Origin: an uncultured Prevotellaceae bacterium
GTDB taxonomy: Bacteria > Bacteroidota > Bacteroidia > Bacteroidales > Bacteroidaceae
Direction of reading: 5' to 3'
NCBI GenBank assembly: GCA_902800595.1
Contig: CADCFA010000015.1
Location: 1-59,402 of the forward strand
Length of the DNA stretch: 59,402 nt
The notes below the pieces were generated by a model, which saw nothing but the letters and a program-made list of their open reading frames with translations, made no database searches and was not told the DNA's origin. Of this stretch, positions 53,285 to 59,389 are shown piece by piece. How positions within the stretch are numbered: the stretch's first letter is position 1; each line of letters begins with the position of its first letter. A program made the translations under genes and the position numbers.

Positions 53285-53779
53285 TTACATACATACCTAC
53301 ATAAAATGATTCAAACTATCGATAAACACTAGTGTTTTGAAACTTTTCTACCTACATAGAAACTACATATAACTACATAGAAACTACATATAACTACATT
53401 CAAACTACATATAACTACATAAAAAACGACTTAATAACAGCTCGATAACGTCGTTTTAGAATCAATTACGCGCATCTGCAATTTCTTCTATTATGGATAG
53501 TAAATAAATTCTCTAGAGAATTTTCTACTAAGTAGCCTTACTAGCAATTGCTAATAAGTAAGGAAGCTCAAGAATTCTCTAGAGAATTTTTCAATAAGCA
53601 TTAAGGAAAAAACTTGCAAATAGTGCCATTGTTCTCTCTTCTTAGCCTATAAACGACTAAATACATGTAGTTTGAATGTAGTTTGAATGTAGTTATATGT
53701 AGTTATTATGTATGTAGCTTTTTTAGCAAACCTTTAATATACAGATAGATAGCATAAAATGATGTAGGTATGTATGTAA
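53285..53779. repeat. Gene-free element of concentric inverted repeats
   Basis: The ends are an 18-bp perfect inverted repeat: TTACATACATACCTACAT (53285-53302) and its complement (53762-53779). Inside is a 29-bp perfect inverted repeat (53382-53410 and 53676-53704) made of ACTACAT units. Nearer the middle AATTCTCTAGAGAATT occurs twice (53507-53522, 53573-53588) and CCTTACT...AGTAAGG (53536-53542, 53557-53563) flanks AGCAATTGCT. Other palindromes are AAACACTAGTGTTT (53324-53337) and AAAACGAC...GTCGTTTT (53423-53457). All the nested pairs centre at about 53532-53550. No open frame of note is present. It could be a MITE-like element, a cruciform-forming recombination or replication site, or a structured RNA locus. 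Its right end is 9 nt from the stop of the barrel gene at 53789. Confidence 0.75.
53360..53422 (+). repeat. Three tandem 21-bp repeats inside the inverted-repeat element
   Basis: AAACTACATATAACTACATAG, with the last two bases varying (AG, TC, AA), repeats at 53360, 53381 and 53402. The reverse-complement counterpart lies at about 53664-53717. Confidence 0.85.
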
Positions 53780-53788
53780 TTTGTAAAA

Positions 53789-54952
53789 TTAGAAACCGAA
53801 TCTCAGTCCTAATTGGAGATTGAAGTTTGTGGGCTTGTCTTTGTAGAAATTGCTGATGCTACTGCCATTATTAAAGTAATGGCGGATACCTGGTTCCGCA
53901 TAGAGACCAACCTGGGGCACAATATGATATTGCACACCTAAACTGCCGCCTAAAGACCATTGTGCCCGATCCTTATCCATCTTCTGGTCAATGCCATCGG
54001 TATTGGCTTTTGCCGCAACATTCCATTCCACCTGACCACCAGCTGTGAGATAAGCCTCTAACCCATGCCATTGCCATACCGAGAACTGCAGATTCAAGGG
54101 GATACCAACATAATGGAGTACCTGATGACGCTTGATCTGATGATTCTGAGCAAGGGTCAGAAAATCGGAACTCAGTCTGGTATATACTGCTCCTGTGCTT
54201 AGAGACAGTCTCTTGGTGAGGGGATAGCTCAGCGTGAGTCCAAAAGAGATGGGCTGCTTGTGATCCTGACGCTCCTCATAATCTGCCAGATATACTGGTT
54301 CCCCACGAGTGAAAGCGAACTTCTGCTGCATCGAAGAACTCATCTGTACGCCATTCCGTCCGTTCCAACTGCTCATACCTCCTGAGGCATACAGGTTCAT
54401 CGACAACTTTTTGTAGTGGTGTTGTGCAGGATTCTTCTCTTCGAACACTTCCAAAGTGGGTTGTTTCTTTTGCACCTCTGTTTTTTTAGGTAATACCTTA
54501 TGCTCCTCATTTATTTCAGGAGCTGACTTTTCTGTAGCAACTGATTCTTCTGTAGTGACAGATTCCTCATTAGCCACAAATCCTTCAGCAGCGAGAGATG
54601 TCCCAGATGGTGGAGTTATGCGTGATGAAACTGTATTCTTTGATGTAATCGCTTGAGCCACAAAGGATTCCTCTTGTTTCGGATTCTCAGGAGCCTCATA
54701 AACTTCTGCAATCACGTCTTGTTGTTGTTCATCGGTGACGGGCTGTTGATGCCAGAACAGATAGCCCCCACCTACAGCCAATCCTACAAATACCGCAGCA
54801 GCCATCCAACGACGCAAGGATACAAGACGATGCTGGCGCTTCACCTCTTTATTAAGTGAAGCCTCAATGCCCTCCCATAAGTCGTGCTTCGGCTCCTCAC
54901 GGTAGTCTGCCAAATGCTTTTCAAGCCTCTCGGTCCATTTATCTTGTTTCAT
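53789..54952 (-). CDS. Dual-membrane-spanning anti-sigma/outer-membrane barrel protein (Dma-like)
   Basis: The 387-residue protein has a cytoplasmic N-terminus (about 1-48, charged helices), one inner-membrane segment (about 49-68, WMAAAVFVGLAVGGGYLFW), a low-complexity periplasmic linker rich in Glu/Ser/Thr/Val (about 70-175, EESVTTEESVATEKSAPEI) and a C-terminal eight-strand-like barrel of the PorT/OmpW kind (about 180-387) ending in the outer-membrane signature LQLGLRFGF. No signal peptide is present. This matches the dual membrane-spanning anti-sigma factors described in B. thetaiotaomicron, in which one chain crosses both membranes and holds a sigma factor. Its start overlaps the sigma-factor stop by 4 nt. 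Such proteins influence vesiculation there; the role here is inferred. Confidence 0.82.
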   Translation of the reverse strand: MKQDKWTERLEKHLADYREEPKHDLWEGIEASLNKEVKRQHRLVSLRRWMAAAVFVGLAVGGGYLFWHQQPVTDEQQQDVIAEVYEAPENPKQEESFVAQAITSKNTVSSRITPPSGTSLAAEGFVANEESVTTEESVATEKSAPEINEEHKVLPKKTEVQKKQPTLEVFEEKNPAQHHYKKLSMNLYASGGMSSWNGRNGVQMSSSMQQKFAFTRGEPVYLADYEERQDHKQPISFGLTLSYPLTKRLSLSTGAVYTRLSSDFLTLAQNHQIKRHQVLHYVGIPLNLQFSVWQWHGLEAYLTAGGQVEWNVAAKANTDGIDQKMDKDRAQWSLGGSLGVQYHIVPQVGLYAEPGIRHYFNNGSSISNFYKDKPTNFNLQLGLRFGF

Positions 54953-55488
54953 ATCTCGTGTCGTTTAATATATTCCTTCATCATCTTTATCAGCATCTGC
55001 TTGGCTCTTGCCAGCTGGGAGGTTGATGAATTCTCCTTGATGCCCAGCCTTTGTGCGATTTCCTGATGCGAGCAGTGCTCGAAAACATAGAGATTTAGCA
55101 CTAGTCTATAGCCGGCAGGCAACTGTGCAATCATTCTACTGAGGATATGAGGTGGAATCCGTTCCAACTCTGGTTCCTCGTCGGGTATATCTGGAATGGT
55201 ACCCGTAAAACTGATCCGTTCATGCTTCCTCACGAAGTCAAGCGCTTTGTTTACTACCGTTCTTCTGACCCATGCTGTGAGTGATCCTTCCCCTTGGTAG
55301 TCAATATGCTGGACTGAGGTCAGGATTTTCACAAAACTGTCTTGCACCACATCCTCCACATCATCGCTGTCAGGGATATACCTCAGTCCTATCGACATGG
55401 CATATCCCTTATACCGTTCGTAGAGCCGTCTCATCGCCTGGCGGTCTCCAGATTTGATGGCTTTCAGCAGTTGCTCCTCAGTTTCCAA
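54949..55488 (-). CDS. ECF sigma factor partnered with the barrel protein
   Basis: The 179-residue protein has region 2 (about 10-85, RYIPDSDDVEDVVQDSFVKIL and TAWVRRTVVNKALD) and region 4 (about 115-175, HQEIAQRLGIKENSSTSQLARAK). The SSTSQL helix and the PPHILSRMIAQLPAGYRLV lead-in are typical of the Bacteroidetes ECF21-type factors. The ATG lies 11 nt inside the end of the lipoprotein gene, and the stop overlaps the anti-sigma start. It should be held by the N-terminal domain of the next gene product until an envelope signal arrives. Confidence 0.95.
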   Translation of the reverse strand: METEEQLLKAIKSGDRQAMRRLYERYKGYAMSIGLRYIPDSDDVEDVVQDSFVKILTSVQHIDYQGEGSLTAWVRRTVVNKALDFVRKHERISFTGTIPDIPDEEPELERIPPHILSRMIAQLPAGYRLVLNLYVFEHCSHQEIAQRLGIKENSSTSQLARAKQMLIKMMKEYIKRHEI

Positions 55489-56131
55489 CAGTGCTCCCCT
55501 TCATTCTATTGATACTTGTGTATCTTAGCTGCATCTCAGGATCAAACGGTATCTCTTTAAATATAACTCCCGCACCTTCTGAACATAAGATCTTATCCAC
55601 AGGGATGATGCAAGAGAATGTCCCTCTTTCACTATTGAGGATTACCGAAGATTTCTCTGTCACAAGGTGTATAGAGATACCAACCTCCTTTCCATCCTCA
55701 AGTGTCACTTGATAGTAAATATACTGTGGGGCCATACTCGAATAGTACATGGGGGTAAATTCGAGGTAGTAGGCATTGTCGGAATATCCGACGTATCGCA
55801 TTGGTATGGCAATGGAATTAGGGATACTGCTGACCGTTGCTCCAGGCATGACTAAATCTGTAATCGCCTGAAACGGAAAGCCGAAAAACGTTGCCGTACT
55901 TGGCAAGGCATCCCCCTGAACTTCAGTGTCATCAAAATTAATACTGACATCAGCTGCTTCCGCCTTTACGTCGTTAACCATCCAAATGCCTTCATAAGTG
56001 TTTCCCCGCGAAACGACGTCATTGTAACTCTCTCCCTTAAAACTGTAAAGGTCATTATCTCCACCAGATGAACAGGCTACAGACACTAAGGCAGCAGCCA
56101 GATAGACGGTTGTTTTTAAATACTGTTTCAT
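55478..56131 (-). CDS. DUF4840-like lipoprotein
   Basis: The 217-residue protein has a lipoprotein signal (lipobox VSVAC, about 16-20) and then SSGGDND, followed by a beta-rich domain (GNTYEGIWMVNDVKAEAADVSI and IAIPMRYVGYSDNAYYLEFTPM). The arrangement resembles DUF4840, a Bacteroidetes lipoprotein family of unknown function; the match is from memory. It overlaps the DUF4377 gene upstream by 4 nt and the sigma gene downstream by 11 nt, so it is tightly bound to this operon and could be a sensor, an effector, or a regulator of the barrel protein. Confidence 0.7.
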   Translation of the reverse strand: MKQYLKTTVYLAAALVSVACSSGGDNDLYSFKGESYNDVVSRGNTYEGIWMVNDVKAEAADVSINFDDTEVQGDALPSTATFFGFPFQAITDLVMPGATVSSIPNSIAIPMRYVGYSDNAYYLEFTPMYYSSMAPQYIYYQVTLEDGKEVGISIHLVTEKSSVILNSERGTFSCIIPVDKILCSEGAGVIFKEIPFDPEMQLRYTSINRMKGSTVGN

Positions 56132-56532
56132 ATTGCAGGACCAATTTTAGGTTGTTTTTTTGAAATCACTTCCACCAATTCAAATGTATAGGGTGGTGGA
56201 TTGCAGGTTCCTACCTGTTGAAGCGTTGGAGTCGCTTTAATACGTAATACATAGACATAACCTTCTTCATAGGAGAAACCTTTAATCTCATTTTCACTGA
56301 AAAGCAAACTTTCACCATTGTCTCTTGAGCCGAATACAGATTTGGGACCCAACGACCAATCTCCCCATTTGTCATTTGGGGCATAAGGGGCATAATGATC
56401 CTCGAGCGTTACCGTCCAGTATTCTGAACCTTCTTCGTCATTCCTGCAGGATATTAAATAGACTGTCACAGCTGAGACAACTGCGAACAGTATCGTTACT
56501 CCAAGTAATTTGAGAATTCCTTTCTTAATCAT
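56128..56532 (-). CDS. DUF4377-containing lipoprotein
   Basis: The 134-residue protein has an N-terminal hydrophobic segment ending in a lipobox-like LISC (about 26-29), then a beta domain with WTVTLEDHYAPYAP, NEIKGFSYEEGYVYVLRIKAT and TFELVEVISK, the last two matching the DUF4377 pattern. It is the first gene of a four-gene, fully overlapping operon ending in the barrel protein. No housekeeping -7 box is visible upstream; a spaced inverted repeat (56585-56641) lies there instead, so the operon could be read by its own ECF factor. Confidence 0.7.
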   Translation of the reverse strand: MIKKGILKLLGVTILFAVVSAVTVYLISCRNDEEGSEYWTVTLEDHYAPYAPNDKWGDWSLGPKSVFGSRDNGESLLFSENEIKGFSYEEGYVYVLRIKATPTLQQVGTCNPPPYTFELVEVISKKQPKIGPAI

Positions 56533-56584
56533 ATTTCCATTTGTTTTTAATGAACCTTTTTTATTATATAACGTAAAAAAGGGG

Positions 56585-56641
56585 AAAATACTGCGTTAAA
56601 AAACAAAAAAACAAAAAAACAAAATAAGGATGCAGTATTTT
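56585..56641. promoter_or_regulatory. Spaced inverted repeat around an A-rich tract, between DUF4377 and serpin genes
   Basis: AAAATACTGC (56585-56594) and GCAGTATTTT (56632-56641) are perfect complements 37 nt apart. Between them lie copies of AAAAAAAC in tandem. The site is about 50 nt from both divergent start codons and could be an operator for either. Confidence 0.6.
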
Positions 56642-56694
56642 CGCATTTTGGAAGTTATAAGGATAAAGAACCTCATTAAAATAATGTTTTGATT

Positions 56695-57914
56695 ATGAAG
56701 AAACTATTCTTTTTTGCAATGACGGCAGCTGTGTTGATGGGCTGCAAGAGTAATGAACCATGTGAAGGTGAAAGAGTGATCGACATGCTTCCAAAGACCA
56801 GGTTTATCGAATTGACAGAGTCGCAGAAAGACTTCGTCAACAAGAACACTGATTTTTCTTTTAACCTCTTCCGTGCTATCAATCAGATGCCAGAGGGTCA
56901 GAAGAGTAATATCATCTCTCCCTCACCTCTGTTCTTGGATTCGGCGAGAACAACAAGCAGGCTGTCAATGAGTTCTGCCAGAAACTGATCCAGGAGGCAC
57001 CAGAGACTGATCCTTCTGTGACACTCAAGATCGCCAACACTGTTATCAGCAATGATTATCGACAGGTAAGACTCGCTCCCCAGTATCAGAGCGATATGGA
57101 GAATTACTATGAAGCGGAAGTCGCCAGTCTTGATTTCTCGAACAAGACTGATGCCCTGAATCATATCAACGGCTGGTGTAATGATCATACCGAGGGTGTG
57201 ATACCCAAGATCCTGAGTGAGAACGAGCTCGATAAAGAAGCCCTTCTGCTGTTGATGAACGCCATCTATTTCAAGGCCACTTGGACGGATAAGTTTGATG
57301 CCAACGATACGAAGGATGAGTCTTTTACGACTGAGGATGGTGTGCAGATGACACTGTCCATGATGCATCGCAAGGCGAGAGCCATCTGTGGAGAGAATGA
57401 TATCTATACGATACTGAACCTTCCCTATGGTAGTGGCGATAAATGGTCTATGAGGGTGCTGCTTCCAAAGGAGGGCAAGACTATCGATGATGTCATCAAT
57501 AGTCTCAACCAGGAATCATGGCAGGAGTTTAGTGATATGCACTCATGGGAACCGCCCATAGTTGATATCAAAATCCCACGTTTCTCTACCGCTTTCGAGA
57601 CTGATCTCATAAAACCGCTGTCTGCTCTTGGCGCCCCCTCGATGTTTGATAGTAAAAAAGCCCAATTCCCAAACATCAGCAGTAATTTTAATGATATCTA
57701 TGTCTCTCTGATGAAACAGAAAGCCGCTATCGAAGTCAATGAGGAGGGTACGAAGGCCTCTGCTGTCACAGTAGCGGTAATGGGAGAATATGCGTTAGGG
57801 CCGATAGGCAAGGATATGAATGTCGATTTCCACTGCAATCGCCCCTTTGTCTATGTCATCCAGGAAGCCAGCAGCGGCACCATCTTCTTCTTAGGTACTT
57901 ATAGGGGAGAATAG
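56695..57914 (+). pseudogene. Serpin family lipoprotein, frameshifted by an internal deletion
   Basis: Bacterial serpins are suicide inhibitors of serine proteases. The ATG at 56695 gives a lipoprotein signal (LMGC) and the first serpin helices (NTDFSFNLFRAINQMPEGQK, then NIISP). The frame then runs into nonsense, ending at about 56988. In another frame TSVLGFGENNKQAVNEFC continues the serpin to 57914, with the hinge EVNEEGTKASAVTVAVMG, an inhibitory-type sequence, and FHCNRPFVYVIQE. About 21 residues of helix B (the SVTYALGMLNNGA region) should lie between NIISP and TSVLGFG; roughly 64 nt appear lost. The downstream frame alone cannot fold as a serpin. Either the gene is decayed or the sequence is wrong here. 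Confidence 0.87.
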
Positions 57915-57990
57915 TCCTGTTTGATATACCCTCAAGATTAAAAAATCATAATAATGCTACAATAATGGTATAACTTAAATGGTTATTGCC

Positions 57991-57998
57991 TACTTTTG
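57991..57998 (+). promoter_or_regulatory. -7 box of the terminal lipoprotein gene
   Basis: TACTTTTG followed by TAAT, 17 nt before the ATG at 58016. Confidence 0.6.
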
Positions 57999-58015
57999 TA
58001 ATCAGAATAAACCTG

Positions 58016-59389
58016 ATGAGAATGATACAGAATAATTGTCACATAAAATTATTGCTGTTAGTATTGGCAGCACTGTTGGTAGCCTGCTCTAAGGACGACG
58101 GAGCAGGAAGTGTGAAAAAGGATGATCAGGTGACGGAAATCGGAACCTGGCCACACCCAGGAACAGGCCAGAAGATTAAAGTCATCGATGAGACTGCCAA
58201 TTACGAAATGGTCTATTATGAGAATCAGGTAGTGAATCGCGGAATTCCTGTTGAGCATGTCAATTTCAGCGATATGCCAGAAGGTCTGAAAGAGACCGTT
58301 AGACTTTGGGGCATGTCAGGCGAAACAAAGATTTTCCGATGTGAGTATAATGGTGAGACCTTCTATCACATGCTGTCTTGGTTCTATGATTGGAATTATG
58401 GTATCTATGATGCCTCAGGTCAGCTAAGTTCCAGATACGGTACAGACTATGAGAATTTTATCAGAGATAGCAAGAACGTGAAGTGCGTCATGGTCATGAA
58501 GCCAGAGTTCATCAAAGATGCTGAAGGTGCGCCTAATAACCTCATCGGAGTATGGGAAAACGACTGGGAGCATGCGCACGTTCGTTCAGATACCAGCTGG
58601 GATTGGACTGATGCCGTCATTCCGCTCCATAAGAATTCTGACTATCTGGGCTTTACCATCAAGCAAATCAAAGTATTTGGAACTGACGGACAGGGGTATC
58701 TGCGCACCATCAAACTGGATGATGACGGCGATGTATTCATCACTACAGATAGGTTTAGGTATGAGATCAACAGTTATTTCGACTGGACGAATCAATATCG
58801 TGATAGATACGAATATTATTACACCTGCTATTTTGAGGGAGGTGACACCATTCAGTATCAAGCCATGATGCAAAATAATTTCCAGAAGTTCGACCACAAA
58901 TCTGGTTATCCACTATCATATCCTTGGTACAGAAAGGATGTTGATGATTTTGTGGCTCCAGCAGAGGCGATGGAGGCTCCTCCTGCCTATCAGGCACCCT
59001 CGAAAGTGACAGACAATCCTCTGGTAGGCAAATGGGTTGGCTACGATTATGGGGATTCACAAGTGCCAAAAAGTACCTTCACCTTTGTATTCAGAGAAGA
59101 CCACACGGGTTATTTGCTGCTTGACAATAATTATTATGAGTCGTTTGCCTATTGGGATAAAACCTATAGAAATATAGATGGTAGCAATGGCCAGTTTTTA
59201 GGGATGGCTTCTGATATTAAATGTTTCGCTTATGATACTGGTTTCTTATCCTTGGAGCCAGAATACACCTGTACGGATAGAGTGGTCAAGTTCTCCCTCG
59301 ATGAAAATCAGATTACCATGACTGGCATGACTTATCGTGATGCCGCCGGACGTGTTGTCCCAATCACATTCAATCGGGTACAAAAATAA
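58016..59389 (+). CDS. Lipoprotein of unknown function with C-terminal lipocalin-like domain
   Basis: The 457-residue protein has a lipoprotein signal (LAALLVAC, about 19-26) after a basic start. I do not recognise a family for the aromatic-rich middle part (YETVRLWG, FYDWNYGIYD, YFDWTNQYRDRYEYYYTCYF). The last ~120 residues begin NPLVGKWVGYDYGD and look like a lipocalin-like beta-barrel (GKW...Y...FVFREDHTGYLLL). The ATG at 58016 is used because the -7 box at 57991-57998 lies inside the longer reading frame; an ATG two codons later is also possible. No terminator is visible before the window ends. Confidence 0.78.
   Translation: MRMIQNNCHIKLLLLVLAALLVACSKDDGAGSVKKDDQVTEIGTWPHPGTGQKIKVIDETANYEMVYYENQVVNRGIPVEHVNFSDMPEGLKETVRLWGMSGETKIFRCEYNGETFYHMLSWFYDWNYGIYDASGQLSSRYGTDYENFIRDSKNVKCVMVMKPEFIKDAEGAPNNLIGVWENDWEHAHVRSDTSWDWTDAVIPLHKNSDYLGFTIKQIKVFGTDGQGYLRTIKLDDDGDVFITTDRFRYEINSYFDWTNQYRDRYEYYYTCYFEGGDTIQYQAMMQNNFQKFDHKSGYPLSYPWYRKDVDDFVAPAEAMEAPPAYQAPSKVTDNPLVGKWVGYDYGDSQVPKSTFTFVFREDHTGYLLLDNNYYESFAYWDKTYRNIDGSNGQFLGMASDIKCFAYDTGFLSLEPEYTCTDRVVKFSLDENQITMTGMTYRDAAGRVVPITFNRVQK

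Follow-up and report, generated by a model that had tools for sequence, protein, structure and literature searches.

A conserved operon of two lipoproteins, an ECF sigma factor and a Dma-type anti-sigma protein in a Prevotellaceae bacterium

When an extracytoplasmic function (ECF) sigma factor is encoded in one overlapping chain with a membrane-spanning anti-sigma protein and two lipoproteins, the question arises whether the lipoproteins sense the signal or represent the response. It is raised here by contig CADCFA010000015.1 (assembly GCA_902800595.1) of an uncultured Prevotellaceae bacterium, whose 59,402 nucleotides we refer to as the window. A sequence-only reading of this DNA had proposed an operon of four overlapping genes for two lipoproteins, an ECF sigma factor and a barrel protein; the open reading frames (ORFs) agree with this, and the successive overlaps in the chain DUF4377-LipX-sigma-Dma are 4, 11 and 4 nt. 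The stretch annotated at the time nevertheless stopped too early, as the unit extends through the intergenic region and a divergent serpin gene to position 57914. It comprises the following features:

56128..56532, minus strand: DUF4377 lipoprotein gene, the first of the operon; 134 aa, Cys29 followed by acidic residues, Pfam PF14302 at 1.1e-8
55478..56131, minus strand: LipX lipoprotein gene; 217 aa, Cys20, predicted small beta-barrel, of a family remotely DUF4840-like and almost always beside sigma-Dma
54949..55488, minus strand: ECF sigma factor gene; 179 aa, TTG start, 4-nt overlap with the Dma gene, Sigma70_r2, Sigma70_r4_2 and TIGR02937
53789..54952, minus strand: Dma-type anti-sigma gene; 387 aa, Pfam OMP_b-brl, AlphaFold2 model, Foldseek, 43-sequence alignment
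56568..56594, minus strand: predicted sigma-dependent operon promoter, GCAGTATT-N14-GTTAT
56632..56658, plus strand: predicted sigma-dependent serpin promoter, core and spacing identical to the operon-side site
56689..57914, plus strand: divergent lipoprotein serpin, frame disrupted, aligning with a 64-bp gap to the intact serpin of sister locus L149

The arrangement DUF4377-LipX-sigma-Dma(-serpin) is a real and conserved unit whose order is beyond chance. We consider it likely, at a probability of roughly 0.68, that it forms a self-inducing envelope-response module of the Dma type with surface lipoproteins and a protease inhibitor as its payload.

Conservation and domain layout of the module

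Conservation was assessed in two sets of loci. The named-record set contains 68 loci, of which 65 were annotated; most are from Prevotella or Prevotellaceae assemblies, with Xylanibacter ruminicola and Hoylesella oralis among the remaining sources. They were fetched by similarity to the Dma proteins of LipX-bearing loci and are therefore near relatives. In its 68 distinct sigma-Dma pairs the first gene upstream of sigma is LipX in 61 and a serpin in 1, with none detected in the remaining 6 (3 at a contig end), and DUF4377 is part of the same-strand chain in nine (L148, L149, L151, L152, L153, L168, L172, L185 and L193). The four-gene order, on whose conservation the sequence-only reading had staked its case, is thus not private to the window genome. 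A second set of 48 further distinct pairs, which includes 20 loci selected for a nearby serpin, yielded LipX in first position in 22, a same-strand serpin in 11 and none in 15, along with nine divergent serpins; since many contigs are common to both, the two sets are not independent. The 11-nt overlap of LipX and sigma recurs in L148, L149, L150, L152 and L153.

The sigma/Dma pair of the window is a switch of a known kind. Pfam finds Sigma70_r2 (4.1e-14) and Sigma70_r4_2 (9.4e-15) in the sigma factor, and among the 25 NCBIfam models listed the general ECF model TIGR02937 is the only one above cut-off. For the Dma protein, where Pfam returns OMP_b-brl at 1.8e-8, an AlphaFold2 model of the single chain, built on 43 sequences, has short helices at residues 3-17 and 25-34, a helix at 42-68 that we take as the inner-membrane span, low-confidence disorder from 70 to 179 and a beta-barrel at 184-386, in agreement with the earlier proposal that one chain spans both membranes. 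With this model Foldseek retrieves solved outer-membrane barrels, such as OmpA (9fzc, E 2.1e-7, TMt 0.70). Of the 73 Dma records in the named-record set, 68 come with a separate sigma gene, 2 are sigma fusions and 3 are truncated; no full-length Dma without a sigma gene was found among them. Single ORFs of 520-557 aa that match both sigma and Dma are seen in L120:3298-4860, L160:7817-9460 and L197:10893-12566, and resemble Dma3, a published protein in which sigma and anti-sigma are fused. A further variant is found in the G136 locus L064:1911-9228, in which two sigma-Dma modules lie in tandem with two serpins around them.

Paired promoter-like sites

The 156-bp gap between the serpin and the operon contains two outward-facing sites with identical cores, GCAGTATT-N14-GTTAT. 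In the 2.37-Mb genome of the window these are the sole matches with at most one mismatch, and both match without any. L063 and L064, whose Dma proteins are 92% and 55% identical, have the twin pair in their orthologous gaps as well (G136 carries a variant on the operon side). As a strict 15-base motif, framed with nine of its eventual 12 sites so that three are new, the pattern was matched 12 times across 299 genomes of the genus, its reversed control not once. All 12 are located at the 5' end of LipX-sigma; Dma follows within the short locus in ten cases and lies just downstream in the other two (G032 and G139). Wherever the lipoprotein genes exist, the motif precedes LipX or DUF4377 and not sigma.

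A relaxed pattern, [GA]CA[AGT][GAT][AT]TT-N-[AG]TTAT, was evaluated with the discovery loci excluded and with module-promoter regions making up 4.1% of the sequence space. As evidenced by this analysis, 21 of 27 distinct sites fall into these regions at a spacing of 13 (P 1.7e-24) and 15 of 28 at a spacing of 14 (P 3.4e-14). Among the 12 other spacings, 17 and 18 gave 3 of 7 (P 0.002) and 2 of 6 (P 0.02), respectively, and ten gave at most one site with P>0.1. None of the three matches of the reversed controls was in a module-promoter region.

Lipoproteins and divergent genes

The assignment of the operon's first gene to DUF4377, already made from sequence alone, holds, with PF14302 scoring 35.3 bits against a gathering score of 25. 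That of its neighbour to a DUF4840-like family holds in part, for the family: 3 of 45 LipX members match PF16128 (best 3.6e-7), whereas the LipX protein of the window has no significant match in Pfam. LipX is a member of a divergent lipoprotein family, and its model is an all-beta domain (mean predicted local distance difference test score, pLDDT, 83) whose structural matches are small beta-barrels, none of them a convincing relative. In the 200-genome sample of the genus, 44 of the 50 LipX matches at E<=1e-10 precede a listed Dma gene on its own strand; the other six are beside sigma (G033 and G178), at a contig end (G020) or have no module nearby (G054, G099 and G111). A tandem of three LipX paralogues occurs in L083:796-5803, preceded by DUF4377 and followed by sigma and Dma.

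Lipoboxes, called by a regular expression some of whose matches are doubtful, were recorded in 90 of 92 LipX proteins, 38 of 41 serpins, 15 of 15 DUF4377 proteins and 10 of 10 von Willebrand factor A (VWA) proteins. By raw count, acidic residues are common at positions +4 to +8 after the lipid cysteine, and the DUF4377 family is acidic at +4 to +6. As PMC9308784 remarks on such residues as a surface signal, their presence suggests that the lipoproteins are exported to the cell surface.

In the divergent serpin of the window one frame spans only positions 82-366 of the serpin profile, and a 64-bp gap and a frame break are evident in comparison with L149, whose serpin is intact (2.5e-97). The disruption may be a true lineage change or an assembly error. 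Of the 150 serpins listed for the genus, 36, spread over 27 genomes, have a listed Dma at no more than 5 kb, and for just 2 more the distance is between 5 and 60 kb. Their position varies by module, either directly before sigma in the place of LipX or divergent; in G020, where the contig starts with LipX, DUF4377 and a serpin stand before LipX, all on the same strand. A loose inhibitory-type pattern for the reactive-loop hinge fits all 41 distinct serpins, and the loops beyond the hinge are varied. The best solved structure for the L149 serpin is 5ncs (E 2.4e-51), labelled 'Serpin', a sibling entry of 5nct, which is labelled miropin. Miropin presumably originates from Tannerella forsythia, in keeping with the titles retrieved. 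The L149 protein is thus like this bacterial serpin in its top structural match; for a tie between serpins and a sigma/Dma switch, as described here, no printed report was found among the literature listings and the passages of one paper that were searched. In other modules a VWA-domain lipoprotein is encoded by the divergent gene; the single one examined with Pfam is YfbK-like. VWA lipoproteins of about 500-540 aa are divergent to LipX-sigma-Dma in L134:5804-7309, L130:3547-5085, L140:4710-6224, L136:5256-6767, L070:3952-5544 and L133:4961-6589, and the promoter pattern faces the VWA gene in L134 and L130.

Sensor or output

The published systems provide a frame for this question. In Bacteroides thetaiotaomicron, Dma1 and Dma2 are reported to restrain their sigma factors, and loss of dma2 raises neighbouring genes, DUF4943 and DUF4858, by a log2 fold change of as much as 6.0 (PMC13088901). 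The window module resembles these systems in its adjoining genes and in the domain order of its Dma, with an anti-sigma part, inner-membrane helix, disordered tether and C-terminal barrel, and an ECF sigma gene adjacent. It differs in its payload of DUF4377, LipX and a divergent serpin, located upstream of sigma and under twin promoter-like sites. Co-induced neighbours of such pairs, these genes and the NigD lipoproteins treated below, are thus on record, so that induction of a gene beside the switch has precedents. The sequence-only reading had missed these, as well as the divergent serpin and the paired promoter-like sites.

In the EcfO-Reo system of Phocaeicola vulgatus and Bacteroides fragilis, the anti-sigma factor Reo spans from the cytoplasm to the surface, described as all five compartments (PMC13114119, PMC9308784). 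The nigD genes belong to the EcfO regulon, one of them (tag 03762) adjoining 03761/03760 by tag number, and NigD production requires EcfO-Reo (PMC13114119). The surface NigD lipoproteins are the output of EcfO, their induction being reported from the mouse gut and on exposure to antibacterial toxins (PMC13114119, PMC9308784). The window has LipX and DUF4377 instead of NigD, with a serpin added. Neither NigD_N nor NigD_C was found in its lipoproteins by Pfam at E<=1, and NF051862 reached only E 0.042 and 13.6 bits with the DUF4377 protein, below the cut-off of 60, with no match to LipX. Dma-type matches are present in 102 of 151 family genomes sampled, the genus of the window included, and outside this genus the Dma profile of the window finds homologues that neighbour NigD genes. 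Of the lipoprotein genes adjacent to sigma in 29 fetched loci, ten were chosen, and all of these were NigD-like; six other genera supplied nine of them and the window's own genus one, seven being divergent to sigma and three on the same strand. Judged by position and by the promoter-like sites, the counterpart of the NigD output would be LipX and DUF4377 together with the serpin or VWA protein.

In the reading that we favour, sigma would at rest be bound at the inner membrane by the cytoplasmic N-terminus of Dma, with the C-terminal barrel in the outer membrane and the disordered tether joining both ends. A disturbance of the outer membrane or surface would alter or cut Dma and free sigma, which would then activate both outward-facing promoters through their shared -35/-10-like elements (RCARRATTT / RTTAT). 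The operon-side promoter would drive DUF4377-LipX-sigma-Dma and thereby both amplify and reset the switch, and the second one would drive the divergent serpin; lipoproteins and serpin would be exported as output, probably to the cell surface. The gene order, the domain layout, their conservation, the paired promoter-like sites with their specificity and the lipoboxes with acidic followers can be regarded as established at the sequence level. Recognition of the twin sites by this sigma factor is presumed, and inhibition of sigma by Dma would follow the published precedents of Dma1/Das1 and Reo/EcfO. The signal would be damage to the envelope or by proteases, and the module products would protect the surface, this being the putative function of the lipoproteins.

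Several observations weigh against this reading. At up to one mismatch the reversed pattern has three matches in the same genome, and the relaxed pattern is unspecific there, with 12 matches versus 5 for its reversed control. It is also mostly absent from the 29 family-wide Dma loci, so that every sigma lineage probably uses a promoter of its own. No intact serpin domain was found in the window copy, so that this part of the payload is disrupted, and DUF4377 is mostly away from Dma: matches to the window protein occur in 23 genomes, but share a contig with a listed Dma in just three of them, the window's own genome, G131 and G136. LipX, by contrast, is nearly confined to the module, with 46 of its 50 strong matches beside sigma or Dma, a distribution that fits a sensor or feedback role as well.

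LipX, and possibly DUF4377, may accordingly be part of the sensing machinery, as barrel-like lipoproteins that bind a ligand or a damaged envelope component and gate the Dma barrel, acting as co-sensor or negative feedback. In other pairs, however, the place of LipX is taken by NigD or by a serpin (same-strand in 11 of the 48, a set partly fetched for nearby serpins), so that LipX is not needed for Dma function generally, and as the promoter-like site precedes LipX, its gene would itself be induced. We therefore consider this possibility unlikely, if the least so of the alternatives. Of the two roles that the sequence-only reading had left side by side, the promoter-like evidence and the published NigD precedent favour output as the more likely one, with some room for sensing or feedback by LipX. 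It is quite unlikely that the module mainly controls outer-membrane vesiculation with LipX as a functional stand-in for NigD, by analogy with the published role of Dma1/NigD1 and Dma2 in B. thetaiotaomicron. The shared architecture and the position of LipX in the genomic slot of NigD are in line with this, as is the hypervesiculation of dma1 and dma2 deletions reported in PMC13088901; yet the lipoproteins of the window lack a detectable NigD domain, and the divergent payload is a serpin or VWA protein. The same paper describes the induced neighbours of dma2 as dispensable for vesiculation in B. thetaiotaomicron, a finding that also counts against our preferred reading. Chance co-transcription of lipoproteins that have no functional relation to the switch would agree with the scattered occurrence of DUF4377, but is highly improbable in view of the overlapping genes, the LipX order retained in most pairs and a motif that stands before the lipoprotein genes.

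Dma switches are recent, and in the Dma literature examined neither their signals nor the function of a lipoprotein output is established. The output of the switch in the window can be named in part, serpins being protease inhibitors, and the promoter appears to be readable from the sequence, so that the regulon of each switch becomes predictable. A specific candidate signal, protease attack or outer-membrane damage, becomes testable, and two uncharacterised lipoprotein families, DUF4377 and LipX, gain a regulatory context. If the module works as we propose, it is a small, self-contained surface-response circuit. A bolder and rather doubtful extension would regard the Prevotella-type Dma modules as a family of protease-response circuits in which the barrel and exposed tether serve as bait; proteolysis or surface damage would free sigma, the twin promoters would release surface serpins and LipX, DUF4377 or VWA lipoproteins, the attacker would be neutralised and the surface restored, and co-induced Dma would reset the switch.

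Two further features flank the unit. At 57986-59389 on the plus strand, downstream of the serpin, lies a lipoprotein-like ORF of 467 aa for which Pfam returned nothing at E 0.001. On the other side, shortly beyond the 3' end of the Dma gene, short tandem repeats at 53352-53425 (21-bp unit CTACATAGAAACTACATATAA) and 53665-53712 (11-bp unit ATGTAGTTTGA, which occurs partly as its reverse complement) are located around an AT-rich stretch.
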